From positions 1-50,056 of the forward strand of contig WHSO01000018.1 in NCBI GenBank assembly GCA_009380075.1: DNA of 50,056 bases. Direction: 5' to 3'. The notes below the pieces were generated by a model. The model had not been told where the DNA came from and did not search any database. It was given only the letters and a program-made list of their open reading frames with translations. The translations under genes and the position numbers were made by a program. Positions 9,186 through 45,529 of this stretch are shown here, in pieces (position 1 is the first letter of the stretch; the number at the start of each line of letters is the position of its first letter). The DNA comes from Alphaproteobacteria bacterium (GTDB lineage Bacteria > Pseudomonadota > Alphaproteobacteria > SMXQ01).

Positions 9186-9252
9186 GCCCTTGCAAATGCC
9201 TTCCCCGCTCCCTACCTCCTGAAAAATGTGAATTTTGATATCGGAGGTTATC

Positions 9253-9614
9253 ATGGCTGCGGACACGCTTGATTTGCTTCGCGACGCAATCCGTCATCGT
9301 CGCCAATTGGTGTTTTCCTATGACGGTTACCCCCGTGAGGCCTGCGCACATGCCCTTGGGACCAAGAAGGGCGAATGGCATGTATTCGTTTGGCAATTTG
9401 GGGGTAATTCGTCTCACGGATTGAACCCTGCGGGCCAGAACTGGCGGGCATGGAAGTGGACCGCATCGACGGCCTATCCGTCAGGGACGGTGAATGGCAT
9501 CGTGGCTGGACGAAGGGCCTCAAACCCAGCAGCTGCATCGAGGTCATAGACACTGTGGTGGACCCGGCATTTGCCGCCGAAAACCAGCAAACTTCTCCCG
9601 AGCATACTCGGTAG
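9253..9614 (+). pseudogene. WYL-like domain protein, frameshifted
   Basis: A GGAGG ribosome-binding site at 9243-9247 precedes the ATG at 9253. The product starts LDLLRDAIRHRRQLVFSYDG, then AHALGTKKGEWHVFVWQFGG and GLNPAGQNWR, which resembles the WYL-type ligand-sensing fold seen in short stand-alone proteins. After NWR at about 9447 the annotated frame degenerates, whereas the frame one base over continues sensibly from 9450 as MEVDRIDGLSVRDGEWHRG, then WTKGLKPSSCIEVIDTVVD, to a stop at 9612-9614. One base appears to be missing at about 9447-9449. The cause may be a true mutation in a passenger gene or a base-calling error. Confidence 0.75.
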
Positions 9615-9807
9615 CTCTCTGTTCCGCCGAAGGGCCGGAAAATACAGTTTCCAGCATGGCGCCGTCCGAATCGACGGCCCAAACGATCCACTGTTCGCGA
9701 TTTTCGGAGGACTGGTAGAGTTCGGCAACTGCCGGGATTCTGACGATTTCCCCGGTTTCCCCTAGCAGGGAAATGGCCTCGAAACACTCTTGAATAGATT
9801 TGGACAT
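9544..9807 (-). CDS. 87-residue hypothetical protein in the IS1595 element
   Basis: The frame starts at an ATG at 9807 behind a GGAG sequence 8-12 bases upstream. The product, with EAISLLGETGEIVRIPAVAELY, REQWIVWAVDSDGAMLETVF and QRATEYAREKFAGFRR, reads like a small alpha/beta cytoplasmic protein with a basic C-terminus. I recognise no family. Its 3' end overlaps the end of the WYL-like pseudogene by about 70 bases in the convergent direction. The ribosome-binding site lies inside a long hairpin (9809-9855), so translation may be blocked on read-through transcripts. Confidence 0.6.
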   Translation of the reverse strand: MSKSIQECFEAISLLGETGEIVRIPAVAELYQSSENREQWIVWAVDSDGAMLETVFSGPSAEQRATEYAREKFAGFRRQMPGPPQCL

Positions 9808-9808
9808 G

Positions 9809-9855
9809 GCGAAACGTCTCCGGTAGAATCATTCCTACCGGGAACGCCGTTTCGC
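9809..9855 (-). promoter_or_regulatory. Long nested hairpin covering the ribosome-binding site of the 87-aa ORF
   Basis: An outer 8-bp arm (GCGAAACG at 9809-9816 with CGTTTCGC at 9848-9855) and an inner 7-bp arm (CCGGTAG at 9820-9826 with CTACCGG at 9835-9841) form one nested structure directly upstream of the start at 9807. Read on the minus strand, the GGAG ribosome-binding site falls in the stem. It could sequester translation starts or act as a terminator for transcripts from the transposase operon. Which of these applies is inference. Confidence 0.6.
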
Positions 9856-9939
9856 ATCGGCCGTATCCCAAATCTATTCGACGAATCGGGCGGCAACCCT
9901 TTTCGTCCTCACCTTTATAGCATGAAATGGAGCCAGATA

Positions 9940-9955
9940 CCGCCCCCTTGGGCGG
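9940..9955 (-). terminator. Possible hairpin terminator after the transposase operon
   Basis: CCGCCC (9940-9945) pairs with GGGCGG (9950-9955) around a four-base loop, just past the stop of the 150-residue partner gene at 9963. There is no clean T-run, only a T-containing stretch on the minus strand, so termination may be weak. Confidence 0.35.
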
Positions 9956-9962
9956 CTGCTCC

Positions 9963-10415
9963 CTATTGTTTTGCTCGGTCGGGGGGCACTATTTCCCACC
10001 GCTTATACTCTCCGGTGTAGGGCACTTCGCGGACGATGCCCCTCCGTTTCAGCTTGAACAGGCAGGCTCCCACGCGCTTGCGGATCACGATAACGGCGCG
10101 GGTATCGTTTTGATTGAGCCCCCGCCCTTCCATCACCTTGTAGGCGATTTCCAGCGTTGTAGCGGGCTCCTTGGCTTGCCGTAGGTACGCCAGCACGAAC
10201 CGCTGCATTTCGCCCTTGAACGCGCCCATGCGTGGTGGGTAGGGCTTCGACTTCGTAAGCGTTGCGTCGCATGTCGGGTCAATGATCCTGATGGCGTTGT
10301 CGATGTAATCCAAATTGGCAATCAGGTCATTCAGGGTCCGGTGCGTGTGTTCGATCTCCCCCGCGATCTCCGCCCGCTTGCGGAGTAATCCCGTCAAGAC
10401 GTGTTCGTTTTTCAT
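9963..10415 (-). CDS. IS1595-associated accessory protein, 150 residues
   Basis: Its ATG overlaps the stop of the transposase gene in an ATGA junction, so it is translated with the transposase. The N-terminal 50 residues (LLRKRAEIAGEIEHTHRTLN and onward) look like a coiled coil; the C-terminal part (FVLAYLRQAKEPATTLEIAY, VIVIRKRVGACLFKLKRRG, then YTGEYKRWEIV) has the pattern of a winged helix-turn-helix. Proteins of this layout accompany ISXO2-type transposases in other genomes, as far as I know without a proven role. A function as a DNA-binding transposition helper or repressor is inference. Confidence 0.82.
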   Translation of the reverse strand: MKNEHVLTGLLRKRAEIAGEIEHTHRTLNDLIANLDYIDNAIRIIDPTCDATLTKSKPYPPRMGAFKGEMQRFVLAYLRQAKEPATTLEIAYKVMEGRGLNQNDTRAVIVIRKRVGACLFKLKRRGIVREVPYTGEYKRWEIVPPDRAKQ

Positions 10416-11374
10416 ATTGCCTTCCTTTGCCAGTAGCCTTTCCAGTTTTCCGAAACGGGGTGCGCCAGTGCGGCCCTAGCCGCCAGCGTGTACAGCGTTC
10501 CATTGGCCTTGCGCCGGTTGTCCTCGCGCCACGCCATTTCGCGGGCGTACTGATACAAATACCGGCCGCTGATCTTGTGGTGCGTACCGATTTCCGCACG
10601 GCGCAGACGGGAGAAATAGCTTTCGGCCTGATTAGTGCAGGCGTCCTCATCCCGATAGGCAACGCTGTGATTGATGCGCTTGGCTTCGTAACGGGAGTGC
10701 AGGGCATCCCAGCATGACGCCTCATCGGCATAGATCGTGCTGCCCGGCTGGACGCGCTCAATGATGGTGCTAAGGGCTTCGTCCTCACCATCGAACACGA
10801 ACGGCAGGGCGCGGCCTTTGCGCTCGCGCATGATGACCACGGCCTTGCGCTTGCCGTTCTGGTTTTCTTTTAGGCGACGATCAATGCGGTCCTCTTTCCG
10901 GTTCTCCGGTTTGATGTAGCCACCGAAAAACGCGCCATCGACTTCGACTTCGCCGTGCAATTTGCGGTCCTGCATTTCGGCGCCCATCGCCTCGCGCAGC
11001 TTGTGGGCCAGCACAAAGGCCGTCTTGTATTGCACATCCAAATCGCGGGAGAGTTGCAGGGCCGAAACGCCCTTGGCACCATTGACGAAGATGGCGATGG
11101 CGGCCAGAAGATCCCTGACCGAGAGTTTGCGGCTGGCGAAGATGGTCCCGGTGGTGACGCTGAATTGCGAGCCACAGCCCTTGCACTTGAAGATTTTGCG
11201 AGCGCGGTATTCATAGACCGTCACACAGCCGCAGCGGGGGCAGTAGGGCTCGCCGCCGTTATCGGCCCAGCGGATCGCCTTGAAGGCGTCATAGGCTTCC
11301 GCGTCGGAAAGCCGCATGACTTTGGCGAGGCTAAGGGTGCGGGCTTTGGCGGAAAGGAGGAAGTGCTGGGCCAT
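10412..11374 (-). CDS. IS1595 family (ISXO2-like) transposase
   Basis: The 320-residue protein has the family's two-part layout. The N-terminal zinc ribbon has CPRC at residues 45-48 and CKGC at 64-67, followed by a helix-turn-helix-like region (LSVRDLLAAIAIFVNGAKGV). The ISXO2-type RNase H-like catalytic domain has the first Asp in VEVDGAFFGGY (about D146), the second in STIYADEAS (about D217) and the TNQAESYFSRLRRA motif (N248/E251). It acts on the 25-bp ends at 9161 and 12593. The start at 11374 has a GGAAAGGAGG-like purine run nearby, inside the coding start. All key residues are present, so the element may still be mobile. Confidence 0.95.
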   Translation of the reverse strand: MAQHFLLSAKARTLSLAKVMRLSDAEAYDAFKAIRWADNGGEPYCPRCGCVTVYEYRARKIFKCKGCGSQFSVTTGTIFASRKLSVRDLLAAIAIFVNGAKGVSALQLSRDLDVQYKTAFVLAHKLREAMGAEMQDRKLHGEVEVDGAFFGGYIKPENRKEDRIDRRLKENQNGKRKAVVIMRERKGRALPFVFDGEDEALSTIIERVQPGSTIYADEASCWDALHSRYEAKRINHSVAYRDEDACTNQAESYFSRLRRAEIGTHHKISGRYLYQYAREMAWREDNRRKANGTLYTLAARAALAHPVSENWKGYWQRKAI

Positions 11375-11379
11375 TTGTT

Positions 11380-11460
11380 ATCACCATATTCGATGTCTAT
11401 GTACCGAATATAGTGATATCAGGTATCGTTGTCAATGGTGTTTATATCGAATATGATGAT
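11380..11460. promoter_or_regulatory. Three 13-bp operator-like repeats in the divergent promoter region
   Basis: Between the transposase start (11374) and the DUF6471 start (11487) lie three copies of CGAATAT(A/G)(A/G)TGAT: 11380-11392 in inverted orientation, 11405-11417 and 11448-11460 in direct orientation. The two direct copies begin 43 bases apart, about four helical turns. They are well placed to control both the transposase and passenger promoters. Which protein binds them (DUF6471 product, 150-residue partner or another) cannot be seen. Confidence 0.7.
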
Positions 11461-11486
11461 AGAAACACCAATTCCAGAGGTATGCG

Positions 11487-11711
11487 ATGCCTGATAAGGA
11501 GTGGCAGGACAAGGTTAAGGGGATACTCAAGGCCGAATTGAAACGGCGGAACGTCAGCTACAAGCAGCTAGCGGATCGACTAGAGGCCTTGGGCGTTCAT
11601 GAGTCGGAGCGGAACATAAATAATAAAATTAGCCGTGGGGGGTTTACTGCGGTATTTTTTGTTCAATCGTTAATAGCAATTGGCGCTACAAAAGTCGATC
11701 TATCCGATTGA
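11487..11711 (+). CDS. DUF6471 domain-containing protein
   Basis: The 74-residue protein shows the DUF6471 pattern: WQDKVKGILKAELKRRNVSY, LADRLEALGV, then SERNINNKISRGGFTAVFFV and a final QSLIAIGA. The arrangement of helices resembles a small helix-turn-helix (XRE-like) DNA-binding fold, but the family has no assigned function that I know. An AGAGG ribosome-binding site ends 6 bases before the ATG. It is the first gene of the rightward passenger group, immediately downstream of the three operator-like repeats, so autoregulation is a reasonable inference. Confidence 0.85.
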   Translation: MPDKEWQDKVKGILKAELKRRNVSYKQLADRLEALGVHESERNINNKISRGGFTAVFFVQSLIAIGATKVDLSD

Positions 11712-11775
11712 AAAGACTTGTATTTGGCAATTCATATCCTATATTGAAGAAGTGTTCTGGCTTGGAGGGCAGCCC

Positions 11776-12225
11776 ATGGCTGTAACGGCGCTTTCAGCGG
11801 CACGTTCGCTTTGCCAGATGCGTGATTGGTCGGTGTCGAATCTTGCGTTGCAAAAGATTCTCTACATCGCCCACATGATTCATCTCGGCAGGACCAGCGG
11901 TCAGCCGCTTCTTCGTGAAAATTTTGAAGCCTGGGATTATGGACCTGTAGTCCCAGAATTGTATCGTCGCGCCCGTGGCTTCGGTAGCGGGCCGGTTCGC
12001 AACGTGTTTCATTGGGAGCCGGAGGCCGGCCGCGGCACTATGGAATATGACGTGCTGCGTGAGGCTTCAAATGCCACCAATGGCATGACTCCGGGTCGGC
12101 TAGTGGCTATCACGCATTGGCCGAAAGGAGCATGGTACAGATGCTACAAGGCCGGTCAGCGCGGCATCGTCATTCCTAACCAATTGATCCTTGACGAATA
12201 CAATGCAAGGGCCACAGCCACCTGA
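11776..12225 (+). CDS. Panacea (SocA/DUF4065-like) domain protein, putative antitoxin PanA
   Basis: The ATG at 11776 has a GGAGG ribosome-binding site at 11764-11768. The 149-residue product shows the Panacea/SocA-like pattern: TALSAARSLCQMRDWSVSNL, then ALQKILYIAHMIHLGRTSG, NFEAWDYGPVVPELYRRARG and a C-terminal WPKGAWYRCYKAG. Panacea domains are promiscuous antitoxin modules that neutralise many unrelated toxins encoded beside them; SocA of Caulobacter is a related antitoxin that also acts as a proteolytic adaptor. The gene overlaps the next one by 23 bases, typical of toxin-antitoxin pairs. The frame extends upstream to 11680 but without a matching ribosome-binding site. Confidence 0.88.
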   Translation: MAVTALSAARSLCQMRDWSVSNLALQKILYIAHMIHLGRTSGQPLLRENFEAWDYGPVVPELYRRARGFGSGPVRNVFHWEPEAGRGTMEYDVLREASNATNGMTPGRLVAITHWPKGAWYRCYKAGQRGIVIPNQLILDEYNARATAT

Positions 12226-12562
12226 TTCTGCAGCAGCGGAGAATGCCGACGATATAGAAGGCATTCTCGCTGCTGACGGTGAGCCTGATGCCAAGGATCA
12301 AACTATTGCGAATCTTGAAGGCGAAATCGCCGCGATCACGAACAAGTTATATGAAGAACGCTTCATCTGGATTCTCGTCGCCATCGTTCTGATCGACATA
12401 TACGTCTTTTCTGAAATGAACAACTGGGCTGCGCCGCTCGTGATCGGCTTCCTTGAGGTTATCGGGATAGTCGTCATGGCAGACCGCTGCGGTGTCGATA
12501 CGGTAGCGCCCCTAATAGATCGACTTACCGGCTTTCTCCGTAGGGCAACACGAAGCGATTAA
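12203..12562 (+). CDS. Two-helix membrane protein partnered with the Panacea gene, putative toxin
   Basis: The gene begins inside the Panacea gene (ATG at 12203, with a TTG at 12191 as an alternative). The 119-residue product has an acidic disordered head (1-30), a short coiled-coil-like stretch (31-51), a first membrane helix (about 54-70, FIWILVAIVLIDIYVF), a tight NNWAAP turn and a second helix (about 76-93), then an amphipathic tail (VDTVAPLIDRLTGFLRRA). I recall similar ERF-W-I...NW-P two-helix proteins beside Panacea genes elsewhere. Membrane-acting toxins are known Panacea partners, but toxicity here is inference. It is the last gene before the right end of the transposon. Confidence 0.75.
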   Translation: MQGPQPPDSAAAENADDIEGILAADGEPDAKDQTIANLEGEIAAITNKLYEERFIWILVAIVLIDIYVFSEMNNWAAPLVIGFLEVIGIVVMADRCGVDTVAPLIDRLTGFLRRATRSD

Positions 12563-12568
12563 TTGGCA

Positions 12569-12593
12569 TAGGTGCGTTTGCTACCTAATATCG
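12569..12593 (-). repeat. Right terminal inverted repeat of the IS1595 element
   Basis: It reads TAGGTGCGTTTGCTACCTAA then TATCG, and complements 9161-9185 at 23 of 25 positions. Confidence 0.95.
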
Positions 12594-12601
12594 GAATTCG
12601 C
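12594..12601 (+). repeat. Target-site duplication, right copy (GAATTCGC)
   Basis: An exact second copy of 9153-9160. It restores the comM frame (GAA TTC GCC CGC) as the host sequence resumes. Confidence 0.93.
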
Positions 12602-13166
12602 CCGCGCCACGCTGGACGCCCTGCGCCAGCCGCTGGAATCGGGCCGCGCCGTCGTCGCCCGGGTGCAGGCGCACGTCACCTGGCCGGCGCGCTTACAACT
12701 GGTCGCCGCCATGAACCCGTGCCGCTGCGGCTACCTCGGCGATGCGGCGCTGGCCTGCAACCGCGCACCGCGCTGCGCTGCCGACTACCAAGGCCGGATC
12801 TCCGGCCCGTTGTTCGACCGCATCGACCTGCATGTCGACGTGCCGGCGGTGGCGGCCGCCGACCTGTCGCTGCCGCCGCCGGCCGAGGGCACGCGCGCGG
12901 TGGCGGCCCGGGTGGCGGCGGCGCGCCGCCTCCAGACCGAACGCTTCCGGGACATGGGCCTGCCGATCCGCACCAATGCCGAGGCCGACGGCGCCGCGCT
13001 GGAAGAGATCGCCGCCCCCGACGCGGCGGGCCGCGCGCTGCTGACCCAGGCGGCGGAGAAGATGCGCCTCACCGCGCGCGGCTATCACCGGTGCCTGCGC
13101 GTCGCGCGCACCCTCGCCGACCTCGACGGCGGCGGGGCCGTCACCCGCACGCATATCGCCGAGGCG

Positions 13167-13191
13167 GTCAGCTACCGTAGGGTGATGACGG
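13167..13191 (+). repeat. Left direct repeat (attL-like) at the comM 3' end
   Basis: Starts GTCAGCTACCG and ends GGGTGATGACGG, matching 14739-14763 at 23 of 25 positions; only the central TA/CC differs. The site also has imperfect dyad symmetry (GTCA...TGAC), as tyrosine-recombinase core sites do. Confidence 0.8.
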
Positions 13192-13228
13192 CAGTCTAAA
13201 TAGTACAAAGTTCTATAATTATTGAAAA

Positions 13229-13250
13229 ATATTATTATAAGCAATAATAT
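13229..13250. promoter_or_regulatory. AT-only hairpin upstream of the dCTP deaminase gene
   Basis: ATATTATT (13229-13236) pairs with AATAATAT (13243-13250) around a six-base loop in the 90-base AT-rich leader. It may end comM transcription or lie in the promoter region of the next gene. The leader is too short for a typical avcI RNA gene and I do not see one. Confidence 0.35.
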
Positions 13251-13288
13251 AGTTTGAATACTAAAAAGCACCAGCTAGGGAAGCAAGC

Positions 13289-14515
13289 ATGGTCGGAGAT
13301 ACCCACGATACCCTTACTGTCAATCAAGAAGACCCACTCACTCCCATACATGGGCCTGAAATATTCATTGGCCTCGTTGGCCCCTCTGGGACCGATTTAG
13401 ATTTGTTGAGCTCACATCTTTCCAAAACTCTGAAGAATTTTGATTACAAATGTCACGTCATTACGGTTAGCGATATCATTAAAGAACTTCGTAAATTTTC
13501 AAATATCCCAGATAAACCTGAAGACGCGCGTATAACAAAACTGATCAAGGCAGGCACAGAGATCAAAGAAACGGTCGGACGAGGAGACATTTTAGCGTTA
13601 CTGAGTATCGCCAAAATTCGAGAACTGAGATTTGCCCAATTGGGCGAGGAGAAGCCCTACAAGCCCTTGAGCAAGGTTGCATACATTTTTCGCTCGTTAA
13701 AAAATCCACAAGAAGTTCAAACCCTCAGAGAAATATACGGTCGGCCTTTCTATTTGATATCCGCATATAGTCCACGCGATAAACGAGTTGAAAATCTCAC
13801 AAAACGTATCGCGGATTCTCACAATAGCAGCAGCCTTACAAAATATCGCGAAGCTGCAGAAAACATAACTGTCACGGATGAATTAGAAGAGGGCAAGAAG
13901 CACGGGCAAAATGTTTCGGGCGCATTTCCAATTGCCGATTTTTTTGTAAACGTTTCCAGAATCAATGATGTTAAGAATCAGGTCGAACGAATAATAAAAA
14001 TCTTATTCGGCTTTCCTTTCGAGACTCCTCAAAAAGACGAAATGGGGATGTATCTGGCGTGGTCCAGCTCTCTCCGCTCCTCTGACCTCTCTCGTCAGGT
14101 CGGTGCCGTCATTATGTCTGATGATGGAGAAGTACTGAGCACGGGTTGTAATGACGTTCCGAAATTTGGAGGCGGTCAATACTGGCCAGATGACACGAAC
14201 GATGAACGTGATTTCCAGAAAGGCTCTGACAGCAACGCCATATACAAAAATCGTATCATCAAAGAGATTGTTGATTTGCTCTATAACGAAGGAGCGTTTG
14301 ATAAGAAATTTGGCTCATCTGCGGACAATGTGGCCAGTAGGATTCTCGGCCCGACTGGTCGATCGATATTCGGAGGCGCTCAGGTATTCAATCTAATTGA
14401 ATTTGGCAGAGCAGTTCATGCGGAAATGGCCGCTATCACAAATGCAGTTCGCCGCGGTGTGAGCCTGCAAAATTCGATTCTCTACTGCACAACATTTCCA
14501 TGCCATAATGGCTAA
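13289..14515 (+). CDS. Antiphage dCTP deaminase (AvcD-like), C-terminally truncated
   Basis: AvcD-type enzymes deplete dCTP during phage infection. The 408-residue product has an N-terminal P-loop kinase-like domain (IFIGLVGPSGTDLDLLSSHL, residues 26-45, the usual degenerate Walker A) and a C-terminal deoxycytidylate-deaminase domain with SSLRSSDLSRQVGAVIMSDD, GCNDVPKFGGGQYWP and the zinc-binding HAE at 377-379. The second zinc motif should read PCxxC, but here it ends PCHNG-stop at residue 408, losing the second Cys and the remaining C-terminal region; family members are usually over 500 residues. The truncated enzyme is probably inactive. Its end overlaps the next ORF by 8 bases. Codon use is AT-rich, unlike the host. 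Confidence 0.9.
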   Translation: MVGDTHDTLTVNQEDPLTPIHGPEIFIGLVGPSGTDLDLLSSHLSKTLKNFDYKCHVITVSDIIKELRKFSNIPDKPEDARITKLIKAGTEIKETVGRGDILALLSIAKIRELRFAQLGEEKPYKPLSKVAYIFRSLKNPQEVQTLREIYGRPFYLISAYSPRDKRVENLTKRIADSHNSSSLTKYREAAENITVTDELEEGKKHGQNVSGAFPIADFFVNVSRINDVKNQVERIIKILFGFPFETPQKDEMGMYLAWSSSLRSSDLSRQVGAVIMSDDGEVLSTGCNDVPKFGGGQYWPDDTNDERDFQKGSDSNAIYKNRIIKEIVDLLYNEGAFDKKFGSSADNVASRILGPTGRSIFGGAQVFNLIEFGRAVHAEMAAITNAVRRGVSLQNSILYCTTFPCHNG

Positions 14516-14705
14516 ACAAGGTTGGTTAGATCGACAGATTAAACTGGCTCAAAGAGATATCCAAAATATGCCTCCTCAATGGAAAGATGCGGTGAAGTTT
14601 GCCGGCTCAAATCCTCCAATATCATCATCTCTAGAGCCTCGGGGAAATTCCCACGGACGTGCTGTTAAAACAGGAAAAGTAGGCAATAAAAATAATTCCC
14701 GATAA
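14508..14705 (+). CDS. Small hypothetical protein after the dCTP deaminase gene
   Basis: The 65-residue product begins MAKQGWLDRQIKLAQRDIQN then MPPQWKDAVKFAG, an amphipathic helical stretch with W-P-W spacing that I have seen in short orphan proteins next to accessory genes, and ends in a low-complexity basic tail. No ribosome-binding site is visible; upstream bases are coding for the truncated deaminase. If a deletion removed the deaminase 3' end, it probably also removed this gene's normal leader. Function unknown. Confidence 0.5.
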   Translation: MAKQGWLDRQIKLAQRDIQNMPPQWKDAVKFAGSNPPISSSLEPRGNSHGRAVKTGKVGNKNNSR

Positions 14706-14738
14706 CAGATTCCTGGAGATTTTGGGTTCTCAAGAGTC

Positions 14739-14763
14739 GTCAGCTACCGCCGGGTGATGACGG
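14739..14763 (+). repeat. Right direct repeat (attR-like) with displaced comM end
   Basis: Reads GTCAGCTACCGCC then GGGTGATGACGG, and runs on as GGGGCGTAG, giving VSYRRVMTGA-stop in the comM frame. This is the original host 3' end, separated from its gene by the inserted segment. Confidence 0.8.
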
Positions 14764-14872
14764 GGGCGTAGTGCAGACTCCGCGCGATCGCACCACGCGT
14801 GATTCCCGCCCACGGAAATTTGCTGTAGTGTGCCGCCGTCGCAAACGTCGGCATCGGGGAGGTTCAGTCGTT

Positions 14873-15247
14873 ATGCTCGCGAGACTCTTTCTGCGTCATT
14901 CCGTCATCTACATTCTCATCGGCATCAGCCTCGGCATCTACATGGCGGCGAGCCACGATCACGGGCTCACGCCGGTGCACGCGCACCTCAACCTGCTCGG
15001 CTTCGTCGCCATGGCGATCTACGGATTCTTCTACCGGCTCTACCCGTCGGCGGAGAACGGCCCACTTGTCAAATGGCACTTCTGGATCGCCAACCTCGGC
15101 ATGGTCGCCCTGCTGATCGCGCTGACGGCGCTGCTGCTCGGCGTGGCGCAGGCGGAAATCTTTACCGCCATCTTCTCCTTCGTCGTGTTCGGCGGGATGA
15201 TCCTGTTCGCGATCATCGTCTTCCGCGCCACCGCGCAGAACGCCTGA
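14873..15247 (+). CDS. Small four-helix membrane protein (cytochrome oxidase subunit I-like family)
   Basis: The ATG at 14873 has GGGGAGG about 10 bases upstream. The 124-residue product has four predicted membrane helices (SVIYILIGISLGIYMAA, LLGFVAMAIYGFFYRL, FWIANLGMVALLIALTALLL, IFSFVVFGGMILFAIIVF) and a conserved-looking HDHGLTPVHAHLNLLG stretch whose histidines resemble a heme-binding site. Proteins of this size and pattern are annotated as cytochrome-c oxidase-like, though they are far smaller than the catalytic subunit and no partner subunits are near. The earlier in-frame start at 14771 overlaps the old comM end and is unlikely. Confidence 0.8.
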   Translation: MLARLFLRHSVIYILIGISLGIYMAASHDHGLTPVHAHLNLLGFVAMAIYGFFYRLYPSAENGPLVKWHFWIANLGMVALLIALTALLLGVAQAEIFTAIFSFVVFGGMILFAIIVFRATAQNA

Positions 15248-15266
15248 CGTTCGCGGCGTTCGGGAC

Positions 15267-15629
15267 CTAGCGCCGGCTCACCATCGGACCGACATAGGCG
15301 CCGCCGAGGATATGAACGTGGTAATGGGGGACTTCCTGTCCCCCGTTCTCCCCGGCGTTGGCGATGAGCCTGTAGCCCGATTCGGCGAGGCCGAGGTCGC
15401 GCGCGATCTTGCCGGCGGCGCGGGTGAGCGCCGCGATCTCCGCGTCCGTCGCGTTGGCCGAGAAATCGTCATGGGAAACATAGGCGCCCTTGGGGATCAC
15501 CAGCACATGCATCGGCGTCTTGGGCGCGATGTCGAAGAAGGCGAGGACATGGTCATCCTCGTAAACCTTCTTGCACGGGATGTCGCCGCGCAGAATCTTG
15601 GCGAAGATGTTGTCGGGATCGTAGGCCAT
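15267..15629 (-). CDS. hinT: HIT (histidine triad) nucleotide-binding protein, HinT-like
   Basis: The 120-residue product matches the HinT branch: NIFAKILRGDIPCKKVYEDD near the start, FFDIAPKTPMHVLVIPKGAY, GYRLIANAGENGGQEVPHYH and the catalytic HYHVHILGG triad. HinT enzymes hydrolyse purine phosphoramidates and related aminoacyl-adenylates in the cytoplasm. The ATG at 15629 has GGAGGAGC close upstream. It lies on the same strand as the his operon but is separated from hisE by the transporter gene and a repeat. In many alphaproteobacteria it directly follows hisE, so the transporter may have been inserted between them. Confidence 0.95.
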   Translation of the reverse strand: MAYDPDNIFAKILRGDIPCKKVYEDDHVLAFFDIAPKTPMHVLVIPKGAYVSHDDFSANATDAEIAALTRAAGKIARDLGLAESGYRLIANAGENGGQEVPHYHVHILGGAYVGPMVSRR

Positions 15630-15754
15630 GGGCTCCTCCCGCCGCGCGCGCCGGTGCGGCCGCTAGGGACGGCTTAGCAGATGGAGCGGATGCTGTCACG
15701 GCGCGGCGCGGGCGGCTCTGGACCGATGGCGGCCGAGGTCCTACCTTGCCCGCC

Positions 15755-16696
15755 ATGAGTAATCCTCCTTCTGCCGCTTCCGCCCAGCGTCCGCCCCTTT
15801 CCGCCATCCTGATCGGCACGCTGCCGCCGCTGTTCTGGTCCGGGAATTTCCTCGTCGCCCGCGTCATGGCCGGGACCATCCCGCCGATCCAGATGTCGTT
15901 CTGGCGCTGGGTGACGGCACTCGTCATTCTGGCACCCTTCGCCCTGCCCCTCGTTTCGGCGCATCGGGCCACGTTGCGGCGGGAGATGCCGTTCCTCGTC
16001 GTCCTCGGCGCGGTCGGGATCACGGCGTTCAACTGCTTCGTCTATGCCGCGCTGCATTACACTACCGTGGTCAACGCGGCACTGATCAATTCGCTGATGC
16101 CGGTGATCACCTTCCTGTTCGCGCTCGTCCTCCTGCGCGACCGTCCGGGCGCCCGGCAGATGGCAGGGGTGGCGATCGCGCTTGTCGGCGCCGCGGTCAT
16201 CATCGCCCGCGGCGATGTCGGTGCGCTCGCGTCGCTGGGATTCAACCGCGGCGACCTGCTGGTGCTGGCCGGGCTCACCTTCTGGGCGCTCTACACGGTG
16301 TTGATCCGCTGGCGGCGGACGGCGCTGCCGATGACGCTGTTCCTCGCCGTCACCATCTTCTTCGGTGTGCTGTTCCACCTGCCGTTCATCGCCTGGGAAT
16401 ACCCGCGCGCCGGCGCCATGCCGGTGACGATGGAGACGCTGGCGGCCATCGCCTTCTTCGCCGTGTTCCCGTCGGTGCTCGCCTATATCTTCTGGAATCG
16501 CACGGTGGCGGCGCTGGGGCCCGGGCGCACCGGCATGTTCATGTACCTGATGCCGGTGTTCAGTTCCGTGCTCGGCGTCGGCCTGCTGGGCGAGGCGTTC
16601 CACCTGTATCACGGCGCGGGGATCGCGCTGATCTTCGCCGGCATTACGCTGACCACCGGCTTCGGCGCCGCGCGCGCCGCAAACAAACCAGACTAA
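15755..16696 (+). CDS. DMT family transporter (EamA domains)
   Basis: The 313-residue membrane protein has the ten-helix, two-EamA-domain layout: PPLFWSGNFLVARVMAGTIP in the first helix, VNAALINSLMPVITFLFALV with DRPGARQMAGVAIALVGAAV closing domain 1, and a second half with GDLLVLAGLTFWALYTVLIR, FFAVFPSVLAYIFWNRTVAA and PVFSSVLGVGLLGEAFHLYH. Such carriers usually export amino acids or other metabolites; the substrate is not predictable. The ATG at 15755 is preferred; a TTG three codons earlier (15746) is possible. It sits alone on the plus strand between two minus-strand genes. Confidence 0.93.
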   Translation: MSNPPSAASAQRPPLSAILIGTLPPLFWSGNFLVARVMAGTIPPIQMSFWRWVTALVILAPFALPLVSAHRATLRREMPFLVVLGAVGITAFNCFVYAALHYTTVVNAALINSLMPVITFLFALVLLRDRPGARQMAGVAIALVGAAVIIARGDVGALASLGFNRGDLLVLAGLTFWALYTVLIRWRRTALPMTLFLAVTIFFGVLFHLPFIAWEYPRAGAMPVTMETLAAIAFFAVFPSVLAYIFWNRTVAALGPGRTGMFMYLMPVFSSVLGVGLLGEAFHLYHGAGIALIFAGITLTTGFGAARAANKPD

Positions 16697-29175: not shown

Positions 29176-30050
29176 CAGGGTGCGAGGCCGGCCGCGGCGG
29201 GCGGGACCGGCACCGGCGCCAGCACATGGGCGCGCAACTCGTCGGTCACCCGCGGGGTCGCGCCGAACCAGGCCTCGAACCCGGCGACCGCCTGATGCAG
29301 CAGCATGCCGAGCCCGTCCACCGTGCGGTGGCCGCGGGCCCGCGCCGCGGCGAGAAGCGGCGTCTCGAGCGGGGAATAAACGATGTCGAAAACCACCGCT
29401 TCGGCCGGAAGCCGGGCAAGGTCGAGATCGAGCGGCCTTTCACCGGCCATGCCCTGGGTGGTGGCATTGACGACGATGGCAGCACCGTCGAGGGCGCGCG
29501 CCCGGCCGGCCCAGCCGACGACACGGGCCGGCGGGCCGAGGGCGAGCGCCAGCTCCTCCGCCCGCGTGAGCGTGCGGTTGACGATGCGGATTTCGCGCGC
29601 CCCCATGTCGGCGAGTGCCACCGCCACCGCGCGCGCGGCACCGCCGGCGCCGACGATGACCGCCGCTCCGGCGGCGGCATCGAAGCCCGGCGCCGCTGAC
29701 CGCAGATGCGTGGTGAAGCCGTAGGCATCGGTGTTGGTGCCGGTAAGCGAACGGTCGGCGCCGACCACGATGGTGTTGACGGCGCCGATGCGGCGCGCGA
29801 CGTCGTCGACCCGGTCGACCGCCTTCAACGCGGCTTCCTTGTGCGGCACGGTGACATTGACGCCGCGAAAGCCGATCAGCGGCAGCATGCGCAGCGCCTG
29901 GCCGAAATGCTCCGGCGCCACCGGCAGGGGCACAAAGGCGCCGTCGATCCGGTGCAGGTCGAGCCAGTAATTGTGCAGACGCGGCGACAGGGAATGGCCG
30001 ACCGGCCAGCCCATGACACCGGCGAGGCGCGCCTTTCCGGTGATGGTCAT
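29175..30050 (-). CDS. aroE: Shikimate dehydrogenase
   Basis: AroE reduces 3-dehydroshikimate with NADPH. The 291-residue protein has [20 protein letters not shown] (substrate-binding Ser pair), [19 protein letters not shown] with the catalytic Lys, NTDAYGF, the nucleotide loop [20 protein letters not shown], then NATTQGM and [17 protein letters not shown]. It overlaps maf and coaE at its ends. Confidence 0.96.
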
Positions 30051-30676
30051 GACGGCACCGCCCCGTGTTCGCGCAGGAAGCCGAGGAGCGCCAGCAACGG
30101 CAGGCCGAGGATGGTGAAGAAATCGCCGTCGATGCGCGCGAACAGTTGCACGCCCATGCCTTCCAGCCGGTAGGCGCCGACGGAGGCGAGCGCATCGGCA
30201 CCTTCGTGGGCGAGGTAGTCCTCGATGAAGGAATCGGAGAACGAACGCATGGTCAGCTTCGGCGTATCCACATGGTGCCAGATGCGCTTGCCGTCGCGCA
30301 CCACCACGGCAGCGGTGGCAAGGCCGTGGGTCTTGCCGCGAAGGGCGCGCAGGCGGTTTTTGGCATGATCCATATCGGCGGGCTTGTCAAACCATTCACC
30401 GTCGCAGACCAGGATCTGGTCGGCACCAATGACGAGGGCACCCGGATACCGGGGCGCGACGCGCAGCGCCTTCATCTCCGCCAGTGCGACGGCCGCGTCG
30501 GTGGCGTCCACGCCTTCGGCGCGAAGGGCGCCTTTCACCGCGTCCTCGTCGACATGCGCCGGCGCGAGGACCGTCTTCACACCGGCGGCCTGAAGAAGCT
30601 GCGCCCGGGTTGGACTGGCCGATGCCAGGACAACCACGGACGATGACGTCGGTGCGGTGGGGATGGTCGGGATCAT
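30047..30676 (-). CDS. maf: Maf family nucleotide pyrophosphatase
   Basis: Maf proteins hydrolyse non-canonical or canonical nucleoside triphosphates to monophosphates. The 209-residue product has [19 protein letters not shown], where the more usual SPRR is [57 protein letters not shown] and [20 protein letters not shown] with [13 protein letters not shown]. The start at 30676 fits; the frame upstream to 30850 lies in the intergenic region. It is the promoter-proximal gene of the leftward arm, next to the candidate origin, and corresponds to the RP001-like gene beside the Rickettsia origin. Confidence 0.94.
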
Positions 30677-31102
30677 GGCAATGTCGCATTCGGCGGGGTG
30701 TGCACAAGCCCACGATAAACCGACATCGGCCGCCGACAAAGGGTGGACAAGACGCTGGTCATCCACAGGGGCCTCTATTCCATGACCAGTGACACGGATT
30801 CCATCTGTGCCTTTCCCGGCCGGGAAAAAACAGCGCCGTTTGCAATACAAACGGGGACAGTTTCAGGTGGCCGGTCTTATCCACCCGATTCACCTTTTCC
30901 GTGAATGGCACGCCGCCACCGTCTGCATCAAGCGGTACAGGTTTCCCGGCAACGGCCCACAGGAGAGACATTTGACCGGATCGGACCTATGGTACCGGCC
31001 GAACCTGTGCGCCTCCAGTAATCCCCGGCATTCAACCCCACAACTACCACTACAACCTTTTACATTAAGATTCTTAGTAATGAAGATAGAGGCCACGACG
31101 GA
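30677..31102. other. Candidate chromosomal replication origin (oriC) between maf and hemE
   Basis: A 426-base gene-free stretch lies between the divergent maf and hemE genes, the arrangement known at the origins of Caulobacter and Rickettsia. DnaA-box-like 9-mers: TCATCCACA at 30759-30767 and TTATCCACC at 30877-30885 each differ by one base from TTATCCACA; TGTGCACAA at 30699-30707 and GGTGGACAA at 30742-30750 (reverse strand) differ by two. The right end (31029-31090) is AT-rich with a near-palindrome centred at 31071, suited to duplex opening. Three GATTC (CcrM-type) sites lie at 30797, 30887 and 31069. Two parS sites are 10-12 kb away. It probably also holds the maf and hemE promoters. Confidence 0.65.
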
Positions 31103-32149
31103 GTGACCGGGCCGGTGACGAGCAAGCCGTTGATCGAGGCGCTCAAGGGCGAGACCATGGAAGTGCCGCCGGTCTGGCTGATGCGCCAGGCCGGGCGCTA
31201 TCTGCCGGAATACCGGGAGCTGCGGGCGCGGGCGCGCGACTTCCTCGATTTCTGCTACACGCCGGAGCTGGCGGTGAAGGCGACGTTGCAGCCTGTCCGC
31301 CGCTTCGCCATGGACGGGGCGATTATCTTCTCCGACATCCTGGTGGTCGCCGATGCGCTGGGACAGACCGTCGGCTTCGTCGACGGCAAGGGGCCGGTGC
31401 TCGAACCGCTCGACGGTGCCGCCGGGGTCGGGAGGTTGTCGCTGCAGGGGCTGCCGGAGCGTCTGGCGCCGGTGTACGCGGCGATCGCGGGCGTGCGGGG
31501 GGAGTTGCCGCCGGCGACGGCGCTGATCGGCTTCTGCGGTGCGCCATGGACGCTGGCGACCTACATGGTCGAGGGCGGATCGTCCCGCGATTTCGCCCGG
31601 ACCAAGGCCTGGGCCTATGGCGAGCCGGAGGGTTTTCGCGTTCTCATCGATCTTCTGGTCGAGGCGCTGGCGGCACACCTGATCGCCCAGGTGAAGGCTG
31701 GAGCCGAGGTGCTGCAAATCTTCGACAGCTGGGCGGGCGTGCTGCCGGATACGGCCTTCTGGGAATGGTCGATCAAGCCGATCCGGGCCATCGTCGAACG
31801 GGTCAACGCGTCCTGTCCGGGTGTCCCGGTCATCGGCTTTCCCAAGGGTGCAGGCATCCTGTACGAGCCTTTCGCCCGCGAAACCGGCATCGACGCCGTC
31901 TCCATCGACACCGCGGTGCCGTGCGACTGGGCCGCGCGCGCGCTTCAAACCACCATAACGGTGCAGGGAAACCTCGATCCGGTGATGCTGGTGACGGGCG
32001 GAACGGCACTCGAAGACGCAACCACCGCCATCTGCGCGCGCCTGCATCGGGGGCCTTTCGTCTTCAATCTCGGCCATGGCGTGCTGCCGCAGACGCCGCC
32101 GGACAACGTCCAACGCCTCGTCGACTGCATCCGGGGCCGGGTTCCGTGA
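31103..32149 (+). CDS. hemE: Uroporphyrinogen decarboxylase
   Basis: HemE decarboxylates uroporphyrinogen III to coproporphyrinogen III. The 348-residue barrel has PPVWLMRQAGRYLPEYRELR, FSDILVVADALG, GFCGAPWTLATYMVEGGSSR, FDSWAGVLP, IGFPKGAG, QGNLDPVMLV and FNLGHGVLPQTPPDNVQRLV. The start is a GTG at 31103 or one four codons later (31115); GAGG at 31088 favours the first. It begins the plus-strand arm of the origin region and couples to hemH by GTGA overlap. Confidence 0.97.
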   Translation: MTGPVTSKPLIEALKGETMEVPPVWLMRQAGRYLPEYRELRARARDFLDFCYTPELAVKATLQPVRRFAMDGAIIFSDILVVADALGQTVGFVDGKGPVLEPLDGAAGVGRLSLQGLPERLAPVYAAIAGVRGELPPATALIGFCGAPWTLATYMVEGGSSRDFARTKAWAYGEPEGFRVLIDLLVEALAAHLIAQVKAGAEVLQIFDSWAGVLPDTAFWEWSIKPIRAIVERVNASCPGVPVIGFPKGAGILYEPFARETGIDAVSIDTAVPCDWAARALQTTITVQGNLDPVMLVTGGTALEDATTAICARLHRGPFVFNLGHGVLPQTPPDNVQRLVDCIRGRVP

Positions 32150-41086: not shown

Positions 41087-41102
41087 TGTTTCACGTGAAA
41101 CA
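41087..41102. promoter_or_regulatory. parS centromere site 1 (TGTTTCACGTGAAACA)
   Basis: A perfect 16-bp palindrome between mnmE and mnmG, extended to 18 bp by G...C flanks. It matches the known ParB-binding consensus of many bacteria. The parAB genes are 2.6 kb downstream. Confidence 0.95.
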
Positions 41103-41152: not shown

Positions 41153-43047
41153 ATGAATGATGGTTCCGTTCGATTCGACGTCATCGTCATCGGTGGCGGC
41201 CATGCCGGCTGCGAGGCCGCAGCTGCCGCAGCGCGCATGAGTGCCGCGACGCTTCTGGTCACGCACAAGGCGGCAACCATCGGCGAAATGTCCTGCAATC
41301 CGGCGATCGGCGGGTTGGGCAAGGGCCACTTGGTGCGGGAGATCGATGCCCTGGACGGGGTCATGGGCCGGGCCATCGACCGCGCTGGCATCCAGTTCCG
41401 CGTTCTTAACCGGTCCAAGGGCCCGGCTGTGCAGGGACCGCGCGCCCAAGCCGATCGCGAACTCTATCGCACCGCCATTCAGGACATCTTGGCCGGGCAG
41501 CCGGGGCTGGCCATCCGGGAAGGGGCGGTGGAGGACCTCCGCCTCGACGCCGGTGGCCGGGTATCCGGAGTGATCCTTGCGGATGGCACGGAAATCCGGG
41601 CCGGGGCCGTAATTCTCACCACTGGGACCTTTCTTTCCGGGATCATCCATATGGGCGAGGAACAAATTCCCGCCGGCCGGGTCGGGGAGGCGCCCGCCAT
41701 CGGCCTGTCGCGCACCCTTGCCCGCTTTGGCTTCGCCCTCGGGCGGCTCAAGACCGGAACGCCACCGCGCCTCGATGGCCGCACTATCGACTGGCAGGGC
41801 CTCGACCGCCAGCCCGGCGACGATCCGCCGGAGCCGTTCTCCTACATGACCACAGCCATCACCACGCCCCAGGTGGCCTGCCATATCACCGCCACGACGC
41901 AGGCGTCCCACGACCTGATCCGCGCCAACCTGCACCGGGCACCCATGTATTCCGGGCAAATCCAGAGTACCGGCCCACGTTATTGCCCGTCCATCGAGGA
42001 CAAGGTGGTGCGGTTCGCGGAACGGGCGCGGCACCAGATTTTCCTTGAGCCCGAAGGCCTCGACGATCCGACCGTCTACCCCAACGGCATTTCGACCTCG
42101 CTGCCCCGGGACGTGCAGATGGCGCTGCTCAAGACCATCCCGGGGCTGGAAAACGCGGTTATCCTGCGCCCAGGCTATGCCATCGAATACGACTACGTCG
42201 ACCCGCGGGAACTCGGCCAAGCCTCGAAACCCGCAGGATTCCTGGACTTTTCTTCGCCGGACAGATCAATGGGACCACCGGTTACGAAGAGGCCGCCGCC
42301 CAGGGCATCATCGCCGGGATCAACGCCGCGCTCCGTGCTGGTGGCACTCGATACCCTTTCGCCATCGACCGCGCCGGGGCTTATCTTGGGGTGCTGATCG
42401 ACGACCTCGTCACCCGCGGGGTGACCGAGCCCTACCGCATGTTTACCTCGCGCGCCGAGTACCGGCTCCTTCTTCGCGCCGACAATGCCGACCAGCGCCT
42501 GACACCGCTGGGGGCCGCCATCGGCTGCGTCGGGCCGGAGCGGAGGCGCGCCCATGATGCCAAGGCAGCCGCCCTGGATGTGGCCCGGACACTCCTGGAA
42601 GGGCTGTCGGCGGCACCGGCGGATATCGCCCGGGCGGGGGTGCGGGTCAGTGCCGACGGCACCCGGCGAAACGCCTGGCGCCTCCTGTCCCACGACCGGG
42701 TGTCGCTGGCGCAACTCTCGGGAATCTGGCCAGAAATCAAGGAAATCGAGCCGCGCCTGCGGCCCCAGATCGCGGCCGACGCCAAATACGCGGTCTATGT
42801 CGCCCGTCAGCAGGGGGATATCGACGCCCTGCGCCGGGATGAGGCCCTGCTGATCCCGGCAACCATCGACTACCGTGTGGTGGGCAGCCTATCCAACGAG
42901 CTGCGGGACAAGCTGGAGCGCGTCCGACCGAAGACCCTGGGCCACGCGGCCCGCATTCCCGGGATGACACCGGCCGCCCTGACCGCCCTTCTGGCGCATG
43001 TGCGCAAGCGCCATGGAACCGCCGCCGTCATCCGGCGCGCGGGCTGA
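41153..43047 (+). pseudogene. mnmG: mnmG (tRNA uridine 5-carboxymethylaminomethyl modification enzyme), apparent frameshift
   Basis: MnmG is the FAD-dependent partner of MnmE. The reading frame opens with [20 protein letters not shown] (FAD-binding GGGHAGCE), then [20 protein letters not shown] and [13 protein letters not shown], then goes off-frame. In the next frame the expected family sequence resumes at once as [20 protein letters not shown], then [20 protein letters not shown] and ends with the normal C-terminal helices. One base, probably a C in GGCCAAGCC at about 42215-42222, is missing. Restoring it gives 631 residues, the normal length. Since the gene is widely conserved, base-calling error is as likely as a true mutation. 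Confidence 0.85.
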
Positions 43048-43729
43048 GCGCGGGGACTTGGCTGCCCGCGATCCGGCGCCCCTGACCGCGGAGGAGTTCG
43101 CCGCGCAGACGAATGTTTCACGTGAAACATTGGCCCGACTTAAGATCTACGCGGCGCTTCTCGTTAAATTCCAGAAGGCCCTGAACTTGGTCGGCCCCGG
43201 TACGCTCGCGGATCCGTGGCGCCGGCATTTCCTCGATTCGGCCCAGCTCTTCCCGCTGATACCATCTTCGGCCCTGGATGGCGGGGAAGGCGCAATAATC
43301 CTCGACCTCGGCAGCGGCGCCGGCTTTCCGGGCGTGGTCCTGGCGCTGATGGGCGCGGGCGCGGGGACGACATTTCGCGTCCATCTGGTCGAAGCGGATA
43401 GCCGCAAGGCGACGTTCCTGAAGGAGGTCGCGCGCCGGACGGACTGCCCCGTGACCATTCACAATTTACGACTCGAGGCGATGGAGCCCTTTCCGGTGGA
43501 CGTCATTTGCGCCCGTGCCTTTGCCCCAATCGCCCGGATTCTGGGGGTTTCAGGCCATTTTCTGGCCCTTCCGGGACCTCGTCCCGTGCTGCTGCTGCTC
43601 AAGGGGCGGCGCGCGACGGAGGAATTGACCGCGGCCCGGAAAGGGTGGAAGATGCACGTTGAGATCACCCCCAGCATCACCGGCGCTGATGCCATGGTGC
43701 TCCGCCTCAGGGACATTGCCCGTGAATAG
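43013..43729 (+). CDS. rsmG: 16S rRNA (guanine-527-N7)-methyltransferase RsmG
   Basis: RsmG methylates G527 of 16S rRNA. The 238-residue product has TNVSRETLARLKIYAALLVK (written partly by an embedded parS), FQKALNLVGPGTL, RRHFLDSAQLFPLI, the SAM-binding loop ILDLGSGAGFPGVVLALMGA, HLVEADSRKATFLKEVARRT and ICARAFAPIARIL, although the usual helix after DLGSGAG is intact. I use the ATG at 43013, which overlaps the mnmG end by 35 bases; the earlier ATG at 42998 is possible. The stop overlaps parA by 8 bases. Confidence 0.95.
   Translation: MEPPPSSGARAERGDLAARDPAPLTAEEFAAQTNVSRETLARLKIYAALLVKFQKALNLVGPGTLADPWRRHFLDSAQLFPLIPSSALDGGEGAIILDLGSGAGFPGVVLALMGAGAGTTFRVHLVEADSRKATFLKEVARRTDCPVTIHNLRLEAMEPFPVDVICARAFAPIARILGVSGHFLALPGPRPVLLLLKGRRATEELTAARKGWKMHVEITPSITGADAMVLRLRDIARE
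43114..43129. promoter_or_regulatory. parS centromere site 2, inside rsmG
   Basis: A second perfect TGTTTCACGTGAAACA, extended to 18 bp by A...T flanks. It is read as Asn-Val-Ser-Arg-Glu-Thr in RsmG, the sequence that explains the NVSRET start common to alphaproteobacterial RsmG proteins. It lies about 600 bases before parA. Confidence 0.95.
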
Positions 43730-44576
43730 TTCTGTGATCGAAACGACGAAATTCCCGGATTCCCTCGACGAAACACGGGATTCCATCAAACCCGCGGAAA
43801 AACAGCGCCCGCGGGTTCTGATTATCGCCAACCAGAAAGGCGGGGTCGGAAAGACCACGACGGCCATCAACCTGGCCACGGCCCTGGCCGCGGTGGGATC
43901 GCGCGTCCTGGTGGTGGATCTCGATCCCCAGGGCAATGCCTCGACCGGGCTGGGGGTCGGCCAGGACCGCCGCGCAACGGGCACCTATGATCTCCTGATC
44001 GGGCGAATCTCCATCCATGAAGCGATCCAGACCACCGATGTGCCGCGCCTCGACCTGGTGCCGAGCACCGTCGAGCTCGCCGGGATCGAGCTCGAGCTGG
44101 TCAATATGGAGCGGCGGGAGTTCCGTCTTCGCGACGCCCTCGAACATGTCGCAACCAAATACGACTACGTCCTGGTGGACAGCCCGCCGTCGCTCAACCT
44201 TCTGACCCTCAACGGACTGGTGGCGGCCGACGCCGTCCTGGTGCCGCTGCAATGCGAGTTCTTCGCCCTCGAGGGCCTGACCCACCTGCTGCGCACCATC
44301 GAACGCGTCACCCGCAGCCTCAATCCCGATCTTGTACTACAAGGGGTTGTGTTGACCATGGCTGATATACGCAACAACTTGACAAATATGGTGGCTGCCG
44401 ACGTTCGCGACTTCCTCGGCGAAAAGGTCTACAGCACCGTCATTCCGCGCAATGTCCGGGTGTCCGAGGCGCCGTCCCACGGCAAGCCTGTGCTGCTCTA
44501 CGATTTCCGCTGCCCCGGATCGCAGGCCTATATCCAGCTGGCGCGTGAGGTTCTGCGCCGCGAGGCGGCGGTATGA
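43722..44576 (+). CDS. parA: Chromosome partitioning ATPase ParA
   Basis: ParA is the DNA-binding ATPase that moves ParB-parS complexes apart. The 284-residue Walker-type ATPase has the deviant P-loop IIANQKGGVGKTTTAINLAT, VLVVDLDPQGNASTGLGV, DYVLVDSPPSLNLLTLNGL and FALEGLTHLLRTIERV, ending with VIPRNVRVSEAPSHGKPVLL. The start is a GTG at 43722, overlapping the rsmG stop. It couples to parB by an ATGA overlap. Confidence 0.97.
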   Translation: MNSSVIETTKFPDSLDETRDSIKPAEKQRPRVLIIANQKGGVGKTTTAINLATALAAVGSRVLVVDLDPQGNASTGLGVGQDRRATGTYDLLIGRISIHEAIQTTDVPRLDLVPSTVELAGIELELVNMERREFRLRDALEHVATKYDYVLVDSPPSLNLLTLNGLVAADAVLVPLQCEFFALEGLTHLLRTIERVTRSLNPDLVLQGVVLTMADIRNNLTNMVAADVRDFLGEKVYSTVIPRNVRVSEAPSHGKPVLLYDFRCPGSQAYIQLAREVLRREAAV

Positions 44577-45529
44577 GCGACCAGGGCGGGCAGGGGCGGG
44601 AAAAACGCAACCTCGGACGCGGCCTGGCGGCTCTGTTCGGGGATGAAATGCAGGATTTCGCCGAGCTGGACCGCGTGCGCGCCTCGCGCAAGGTCCCCGT
44701 CGGCCAGTTGCGGCCCGGGCGCTTCCAGCCGCGCCGGCGTTTCGACCAGGAGGAACTCCAGTCCCTGGTCGATTCGGTGCGCCAGAAGGGGGTTCTGCAG
44801 CCCCTGCTGGTCCGGCGCGTCCCCGGGGAGGTCGACCAGTTCGAGATCATCGCCGGCGAGCGGCGCTGGCGTGCCGCCCAGCTGGCACAGATCCACGACG
44901 TCCCGGTGGTCATCAGCCCGCTGACCGACCAGGAGGCGCTCGAGGTCGCGCTGGTCGAGAACATCCAGCGGACGGACCTGACCCCCCTCGAGGAAGCCGA
45001 AGGCTTCCAGCGGCTGATCAGCGAATTCGCCCATACCCAGGATAATCTGGCGCGGGCCATCGGCAAGAGCCGGTCCCATGTCGCCAATATGCTGCGGCTG
45101 CTTAACCTGCCCGACCCGGTCAAGGCCATGCTCGATGACGGCCAGTTGACGGCCGGGCACGCCCGGGCGCTCCTGAACGCCAAGGATCCCGTCGCCATCG
45201 CCACGGAAGTGGTGGCGCGCGAGCTCAACGTCCGCGACACCGAGCGCCTGGTGCAGTCCGAGCGGCCGGCCAAGCCGCCCAAGGCAAGGGGGGAAACCCC
45301 GAAGCCGGCGGCCTCCATGGCCCCCAGCGCGGGGGAGACAGCCGAAAAGGACGCCGACACCCGGGCCCTGGAACGCGACCTGACGCTGCTGCTGGGCCTC
45401 AAGGTGGTCATCAGCCTCAAGGGCGAGGCCGGCGACGTCGCCATCCACTTCGAAACGCTGGAACAGCTCGACGACGTCCTGCGCCGGCTCAAGCGCGAGC
45501 CGCTCCTTGGCGCCGGCGGCGCGGTGTAG
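44573..45529 (+). CDS. parB: Chromosome partitioning protein ParB
   Basis: ParB binds parS, clamps DNA and uses CTP to spread. The 318-residue product has the N-terminal GRGLAALFGDE that contacts ParA, the CTP-binding region QPRRRFDQEELQSLVDSVRQ, FEIIAGERRWRAAQLAQI, QRTDLTPLEEAEGFQRLISE, the HTH GKSRSHVANMLRLLNLPDPV with LTAGHARALL, and a C-terminal dimerisation segment (ALERDLTLLLGLKVVISLKG). Its parS sites lie at 41087 and 43114. Confidence 0.97.
   Translation: MSDQGGQGREKRNLGRGLAALFGDEMQDFAELDRVRASRKVPVGQLRPGRFQPRRRFDQEELQSLVDSVRQKGVLQPLLVRRVPGEVDQFEIIAGERRWRAAQLAQIHDVPVVISPLTDQEALEVALVENIQRTDLTPLEEAEGFQRLISEFAHTQDNLARAIGKSRSHVANMLRLLNLPDPVKAMLDDGQLTAGHARALLNAKDPVAIATEVVARELNVRDTERLVQSERPAKPPKARGETPKPAASMAPSAGETAEKDADTRALERDLTLLLGLKVVISLKGEAGDVAIHFETLEQLDDVLRRLKREPLLGAGGAV

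Follow-up and report, generated by a model that had tools for sequence, protein, structure and literature searches.

A probable hemE-linked replication origin with a DnaA-trio-like repeat in an alphaproteobacterial genome

The maf-hemE gap and its gene neighborhood

The DNA analyzed here (the window) is a whole contig, C119, of 50,056 bases, from an assembly of 162 contigs and 3.54 Mb. The best named matches of its HemE protein are from alphaproteobacterial MAGs and Rhodospirillales-type species. In our genome collection, the order of the window comprises 11 genomes, which form one family (G000-G010, with G000 as the genome of the window) with five genera (g1-g5). Between maf and hemE there is a gap of 426 bp that contains no genes, as a previous sequence-only reading had stated, and the two flanking genes are divergent (Table 1). 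Transcription leads away from the gap from maf to dnaQ on the left and from hemE to rho on the right. On the left, maf is followed by aroE, coaE and dnaQ (identified by Pfam), with secB and Tim44-like ORFs (named from sequence) beyond them. On the right, hemE is followed by hemH, a hemJ-like ORF and rho, and then by mnmE, mnmG, rsmG, parA and parB; the names of hemH, the hemJ-like ORF and mnmG were likewise given from sequence. The parABS genes and sites lie 10-14 kb from the gap, and the same reading had correctly placed parS at 10-12 kb, where two exact 16-mers occur. The dnaA gene of this genome is on a separate contig, C24. An Rfam search of the window revealed no RNA.

Some details of the annotation are worth recording. 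Judged by the start of HemE in relatives, hemE may begin at the GTG at 31115 rather than at 31103; if this second GTG is the start, the gap may reach 31114. The mnmG (gidA)-like frame at 41153-43047 is split in two near 42391-42397 by a frameshift, which could be a real mutation or an assembly error. The GC content of positions 9000-16000 is 0.49-0.59, compared with about 0.66, and this segment is possibly acquired DNA.

Table 1. Features of the maf-hemE gap and its surroundings (window coordinates).
Feature	Position	Strand	Basis
maf (Maf-like protein), left border of gap	30047-30676	minus	PF02545, E 1e-45
Putative oriC region, intergenic, maf-hemE	30677-31102	strandless	gene calls; skew turns at homologous gaps of relatives (G005, G019)
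DnaA box TTGTGCACA, one mismatch	30699-30707	minus	sequence
DnaA box, two mismatches	30742		sequence
DnaA box TCATCCACA, one mismatch	30759-30767	plus	sequence; G001 has TTGTCCACA at a closely similar offset
DnaA box TTATCCACC (one mismatch), then half-box CGATTCACC, GATTC embedded	30877-30894	plus	sequence
Weak DnaA box TAATCCCCG, two mismatches	31019-31027	plus	sequence, family alignment
Six CNA triplets (CCA-CAA-CTA-CCA-CTA-CAA), DnaA-trio-like run	31038-31055	plus	sequence, family alignment
AT-rich stretch, CCTTTT at its start, TTAAGATTCTTA with GANTC site; probable unwinding region	31055-31090	strandless	sequence
hemE (uroporphyrinogen decarboxylase), right border of gap	31103-32149	plus	PF01208, E 1e-118
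parS, exact 16-mer TGTTTCACGTGAAACA	41087-41102	plus	sequence match
parS, exact 16-mer TGTTTCACGTGAAACA	43114-43129	plus	sequence match
parA	43659-44576	plus	Pfam
parB	44573-45529	plus	Pfam

DnaA boxes and base composition of the gap

The maf-hemE gap contains no perfect DnaA box relative to TTATNCACA. The sequence-only reading had described the boxes at 30759 and 30877 as near-perfect and had counted two weaker ones. The former are present, although neither is perfect and each has one mismatch to TTATNCACA; the latter correspond to TTGTGCACA at 30699 and the two-mismatch box at 30742. Over the whole window, the number of one-mismatch boxes is that expected by chance (7 found versus 7.4 expected), and three of the seven are inside the gap. 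This number, together with the flat GC skew of the window itself, would agree with a chance cluster of boxes in ordinary intergenic DNA and an origin unrelated to hemE. We consider this extremely improbable, considering the clustering and the positional conservation of the boxes. The three one-mismatch boxes fall within 187 bp, a cluster seen in none of 100 simulated windows, and P is 0.002 for the base composition of the gap itself. The hemE gap ranks first for DnaA boxes both in the 50 kb of the window (3 versus 1) and in 203 kb of G005, another member of the family (6 versus 3). Box clusters in intergenic gaps longer than 300 bp are characteristic of hemE-linked alphaproteobacterial origins, and the 426-bp gap with its three boxes fits this pattern.

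Counted from the hemE start, the minus-strand box at about -404 and the plus-strand boxes at about -345 and -226 have counterparts in several relatives. The minus-strand box is common among them, at a distance of about 399-412 bp ahead of hemE (G005, G003, G007, G009, G010 and G053), and the box with its half-box at 30877-30894 has the same offset and a similar layout in G001, G005 and G010. The weak box at 31019 is conserved too: much of the family has (T/C)AATCCCC there, and G005 has TTATCCCCA.

The GC content of the gap is 0.559, compared with 0.664 for the window. Its end next to hemE had been called AT-rich with a near-palindrome, and both descriptions proved accurate: 31055-31090 is 75% AT, a level reached by only 0.15% of the 36-mers in the window, and TTAAGATTCTTA is the near-palindrome. 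GATTC methylation sites had also been noted, and GANTC indeed occurs at 30797, 30887 and 31069 (three versus 1.0 expected). A scan of the gap for the CtrA site (TTAA-N7-TTAA) at up to two mismatches found none, and neither did a scan for IHF sites at up to one mismatch to WATCAANNNNTTR, although a diverged IHF site is possible.

GC skew turns at hemE in relatives of the window

The change of GC skew at the gap in the window itself, a single contig of a fragmented genome, has the right sign but does not reach significance (P = 0.37). The evidence from skew comes mostly from one family member (G005) and one complete relative (G019). In G005, a 203-kb contig (C3) carries dnaA at 15 kb and hemE at 114 kb. 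Along this contig, the cumulative GC skew declines steadily as far as position 114,536 and increases from there on. This minimum is no more than about 200 bp from where hemE starts (about 114,340-114,353), and dnaA is not at the turn. Skew is -0.062 on the left and +0.044 on the right, a change that none of 5000 permutations exceeded.

G019 is a complete 3.74-Mb chromosome of the class, in which we took 20 samples of skew. Values are positive over the first 1.5 Mb of the record and negative between 1.9 and 3.605 Mb. The skew turns at 3.605 Mb, where hemE lies (3,604,122-3,605,162), and the opposite turn falls between 1.5 and 1.9 Mb, about half a chromosome from hemE. Beyond hemE, between 3.605 and 3.66 Mb, values are close to zero or slightly positive; the turn is thus a sharp end of the negative arm and not a symmetric V. 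The dnaA gene of G019 is 136 kb from the turn. In all six family contigs tested, that of the window included, both GC skew and TA skew are higher on the right than on the left. The skew of another complete chromosome, G038, which was also sampled, is too weak to help.

The skew turns in G005 and G019 already contradict a chance cluster with an origin unrelated to hemE. They support the earlier reading of the gap as oriC, which had named a skew minimum far from this locus, or a richer box cluster beside dnaA, as evidence to the contrary. The minimum of G005 is at hemE, and C24 has no cluster near dnaA. We therefore conclude with high confidence that the maf-hemE gap, 30677-31102, is the chromosomal oriC, of the hemE-linked alphaproteobacterial type. 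An origin at hemE is well supported in the relatives, and for the window it is very probable by orthology. This locates the origin for an order that is represented here by 11 fragmented genomes.

Other clusters of DnaA boxes in the genome

Two other places were examined as origins and set aside. Around dnaA on C24, the only one-mismatch boxes are two that lie 15 kb away from the gene. The gap upstream of bioB (C72:17692-17742) has two perfect DnaA boxes 42 bp apart, and no repeat run accompanies them.

The comparison of box clusters that the sequence-only reading had proposed came out in favor of the hemE gap within the window, but a richer array was found on C112, upstream of sdhC (C112:4966-5026). 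There, two perfect boxes and one with one mismatch fall within 61 bp, which is better than the hemE gap. The layout is TGTGNATAA-N31-TTATCCACA-N3-TTATCCACA, an inverted box followed by direct boxes 40 and 52 bp on. The 40/12 spacing is identical in six family members, and G005 has a spacing variant. Allowing up to three mismatches, the pattern occurs in 20 of 385 genomes of the class (versus 0 for a reversed control), and in at least 11 of these 20 it is upstream of sdhC. If this array were the origin, the maf-hemE gap would be only a relic or a promoter. We regard this as very unlikely. Around sdhC in G005 (C16, sdhA at 4720-6507), skew is uniformly negative for 40 kb without a turn, and the sharp minimum is at hemE on C3 instead; therefore, the sdhC array is not the origin there. 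Similarly, C112 of the genome studied here shows no sharp skew turn at the array, and no CNA run (see below) adjoins it. The corresponding array of G038, at 704 kb, is far from both hemE (30 kb) and dnaA (84 kb).

The sdhC array could titrate DnaA or reload it, like datA or DARS of E. coli, or it could regulate sdh. The array also has extra CACA motifs at steps of about 11 bp, which suggest more weak boxes.

A conserved CNA repeat beside hemE

What is most strongly conserved in the family alignment is CAACTACCACTACAACCTTTT...TTAAGATTCTTA, beside hemE, rather than the boxes. This element has the form (CNA)n-CCTTTT-AT-rich-GATTC. Across relatives, the order is a DnaA box (often TTATCCACAGG), a short spacer, 4-6 CNA triplets, CCTTTT and AT-rich DNA. 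Among 110 regions upstream of hemE, 22 have at least four CNA triplets, compared with 0.7 expected and 10 for the next triplet class. At least five CNA triplets occur in 17 of the 110 (0.0 expected), and any other triplet class reaches at most 3. GANTC follows the run within 45 bases in 14 of 31 cases, versus 6.7 expected. Most Rhizobiales and Rhodobacterales loci yielded no CNA module near hemE; therefore, our claim is not class-wide.

The block might instead be a promoter or leader of hemE, with only the distal boxes belonging to oriC. In favor of this, the block is 13-65 bp upstream of where hemE starts, and in Alphaproteobacteria GANTC sites act in transcription control too. We consider this reading unlikely, because the block keeps its order behind a DnaA box, whereas its distance to hemE varies between lineages (about -65 in G000 and G005, -104 in G003, about -143 in G038 and about -265 in G025). 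In addition, no sigma-70-like promoter was found in 30600-31200, although that consensus may not fit alphaproteobacterial promoters. A terminator scan gave two weak terminator-like matches.

Comparison of the run with DnaA-trios

In Bacillus subtilis and other bacteria, the BUS comprises a DnaA box, a GC-rich spacer and DnaA-trios (PMC6669920, PMC8287927, PMC10721633). In the trios of B. subtilis the middle A is needed and C is tolerated; opening is impaired by T or G in this position, and Asn187 reads the middle adenine (PMC10721633). The authors of a BUS survey, who searched for at least three consecutive 3'-NAN-5' trios, suspected that there are DnaA-trios without the middle adenine (PMC8287927). 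In our literature search, which had partial coverage, DnaA-trios were mentioned together with alphaproteobacterial origins only in passing; the BUS survey included the class.

On the bottom strand, the run of the window reads 3'-GGT-GTT-GAT-GGT-GAT-GTT-5'. The orientation of these 3'-GNT-5' trios relative to the box matches that of the BUS. The box TAATCCCCG, with its two mismatches, is 10 bp from the run (the BUS limit is 16 bp), and in many relatives the box beside the run is perfect or near-perfect. Three consecutive 3'-NAN-5' trios do not occur in the window's run; two of its trios have a middle A, and they are not consecutive. No middle-A trios occur in the runs of G005, G009 and G010. 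In 12 loci outside the family, 30 of 56 triplets have T as the middle base of the top strand, which corresponds to the canonical A of the trio strand. In nine loci of the family, by comparison, this base is T in 12 of 46 triplets and A in 30. A Fisher test gave P = 0.008 for this difference, which is optimistic because neither triplets of one locus nor related loci are independent.

When DnaA of the window's genome was aligned to the B. subtilis BUS structure 8btg, it had Tyr at position 187, Leu at 193 and Lys at 202, and Ile190 and Glu228 were kept. Position 187 is Tyr, and once Phe, in 28 alphaproteobacterial DnaAs. Tyr187 is common to members with canonical runs and members with non-canonical runs. 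Thus, it may permit freedom of the middle base, but it does not by itself explain the shift in the family. The repeat, its conservation and the residue difference in DnaA are what the sequences show; DnaA would presumably bind the CNA run. Tentatively, and with less than even confidence, we suggest that many alphaproteobacterial hemE-side origins may be opened at a divergent trio, 3'-GNT-5', in which the middle base would be free and DnaA would read the flanking G and T, and that this would go with Tyr in place of Asn187. As the family run is mostly 3'-GTT-5', B. subtilis DnaA should open such a run poorly. The lineage offers natural, conserved candidates for trios without the middle adenine together with a matching DnaA difference, and the base-capture model of origin opening is directly testable in it.

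Probable loss of ppsR at the origin border

Alphaproteobacterial origins sit at hemE (PMC1914354). The sequence-only reading had stated that the Caulobacter and Rickettsia origins lie beside hemE, in agreement with this source, but it was wrong in taking the Rickettsia border gene RP001 for a maf-type gene. The published border gene of both is COG1806 (DUF299/ppsR), and other borders have been accepted, such as COG1253 in Wolbachia (PMC1914354). A COG1806 border is thus not strictly defining for a hemE-linked oriC.

We searched 61 genomes for ppsR with PF03618 and found it facing hemE in many members of the class. Three genomes of genus g4 (G004, G009 and G010) have ppsR and hemE facing each other on one contig; in G008 ppsR is on another contig than hemE, in a fragmented assembly. 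None of the seven genomes of g1, g2, g3 and g5, that of the window among them, has PF03618. Pyruvate phosphate dikinase is the usual partner of the ppsR regulator. It (TIGR01828) had no match over the cut-off in the same seven genomes, while in g4 it is full-length in G004, G008 and G010 and in pieces in G009. It seems more likely, then, that maf borders the gap because ppsR was lost in this lineage, and the simplest reading is that maf became the neighbor of the origin through a paired loss of ppsR and pyruvate phosphate dikinase. This corrects the identity of the border gene and gives a likely reason for it.

Outside the family, maf also directly faces hemE across an origin-like gap in G050 and G035, and COG1806/ppsR was found in neither genome. 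The pairing with the dikinase is not universal. G050 has kept pyruvate phosphate dikinase without ppsR, so that its ppsR loss is unpaired.

A possible course of initiation

The position of the gap, its conservation, the box clustering, the conserved repeat and the skew turn in relatives are observed, whereas DnaA binding, opening, strand choice and methylation control are steps that we infer. DnaA would bind four boxes, the spread ones at 30699, 30759 and 30877 plus the weak one at 31019, and a DnaA filament would extend from the boxes toward hemE. The filament would then engage one strand of the CNA run, presumably the bottom strand with its 3'-GNT-5' trios. The adjoining AT-rich stretch would be opened, and helicase would be loaded there for two divergent forks. 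With GANTC sites in both the tandem box and the AT-rich stretch, firing could be tied to methylation by CcrM. Segregation of the new origins would fall to ParB bound at the parS sites 10-12 kb away.

Comparison with known origins

The window resembles the BUS in having a DnaA box, albeit a weak one with two mismatches, a 10-bp spacer, a triplet repeat on the corresponding strand and then AT-rich DNA. It differs in that the trios of the window and its relatives are 3'-GNT-5' with a middle T, G or A, and in that the box adjoining the run is degenerate in the window's genus.

Compared with the origins of Caulobacter and Rickettsia, the gap is bordered by maf and not by COG1806/ppsR, since ppsR is absent from the genome. 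Our scans also found no CtrA or IHF consensus sites in it; CtrA sites in hemE-linked origins are variable, with zero in some Wolbachia and Ehrlichia (PMC1914354). In other respects it is like Cori of Caulobacter crescentus and the origins of Rickettsia and Wolbachia. They likewise have a gap beside hemE with several DnaA boxes and an AT-rich stretch, a skew turn (seen here in relatives) and an origin distant from dnaA.
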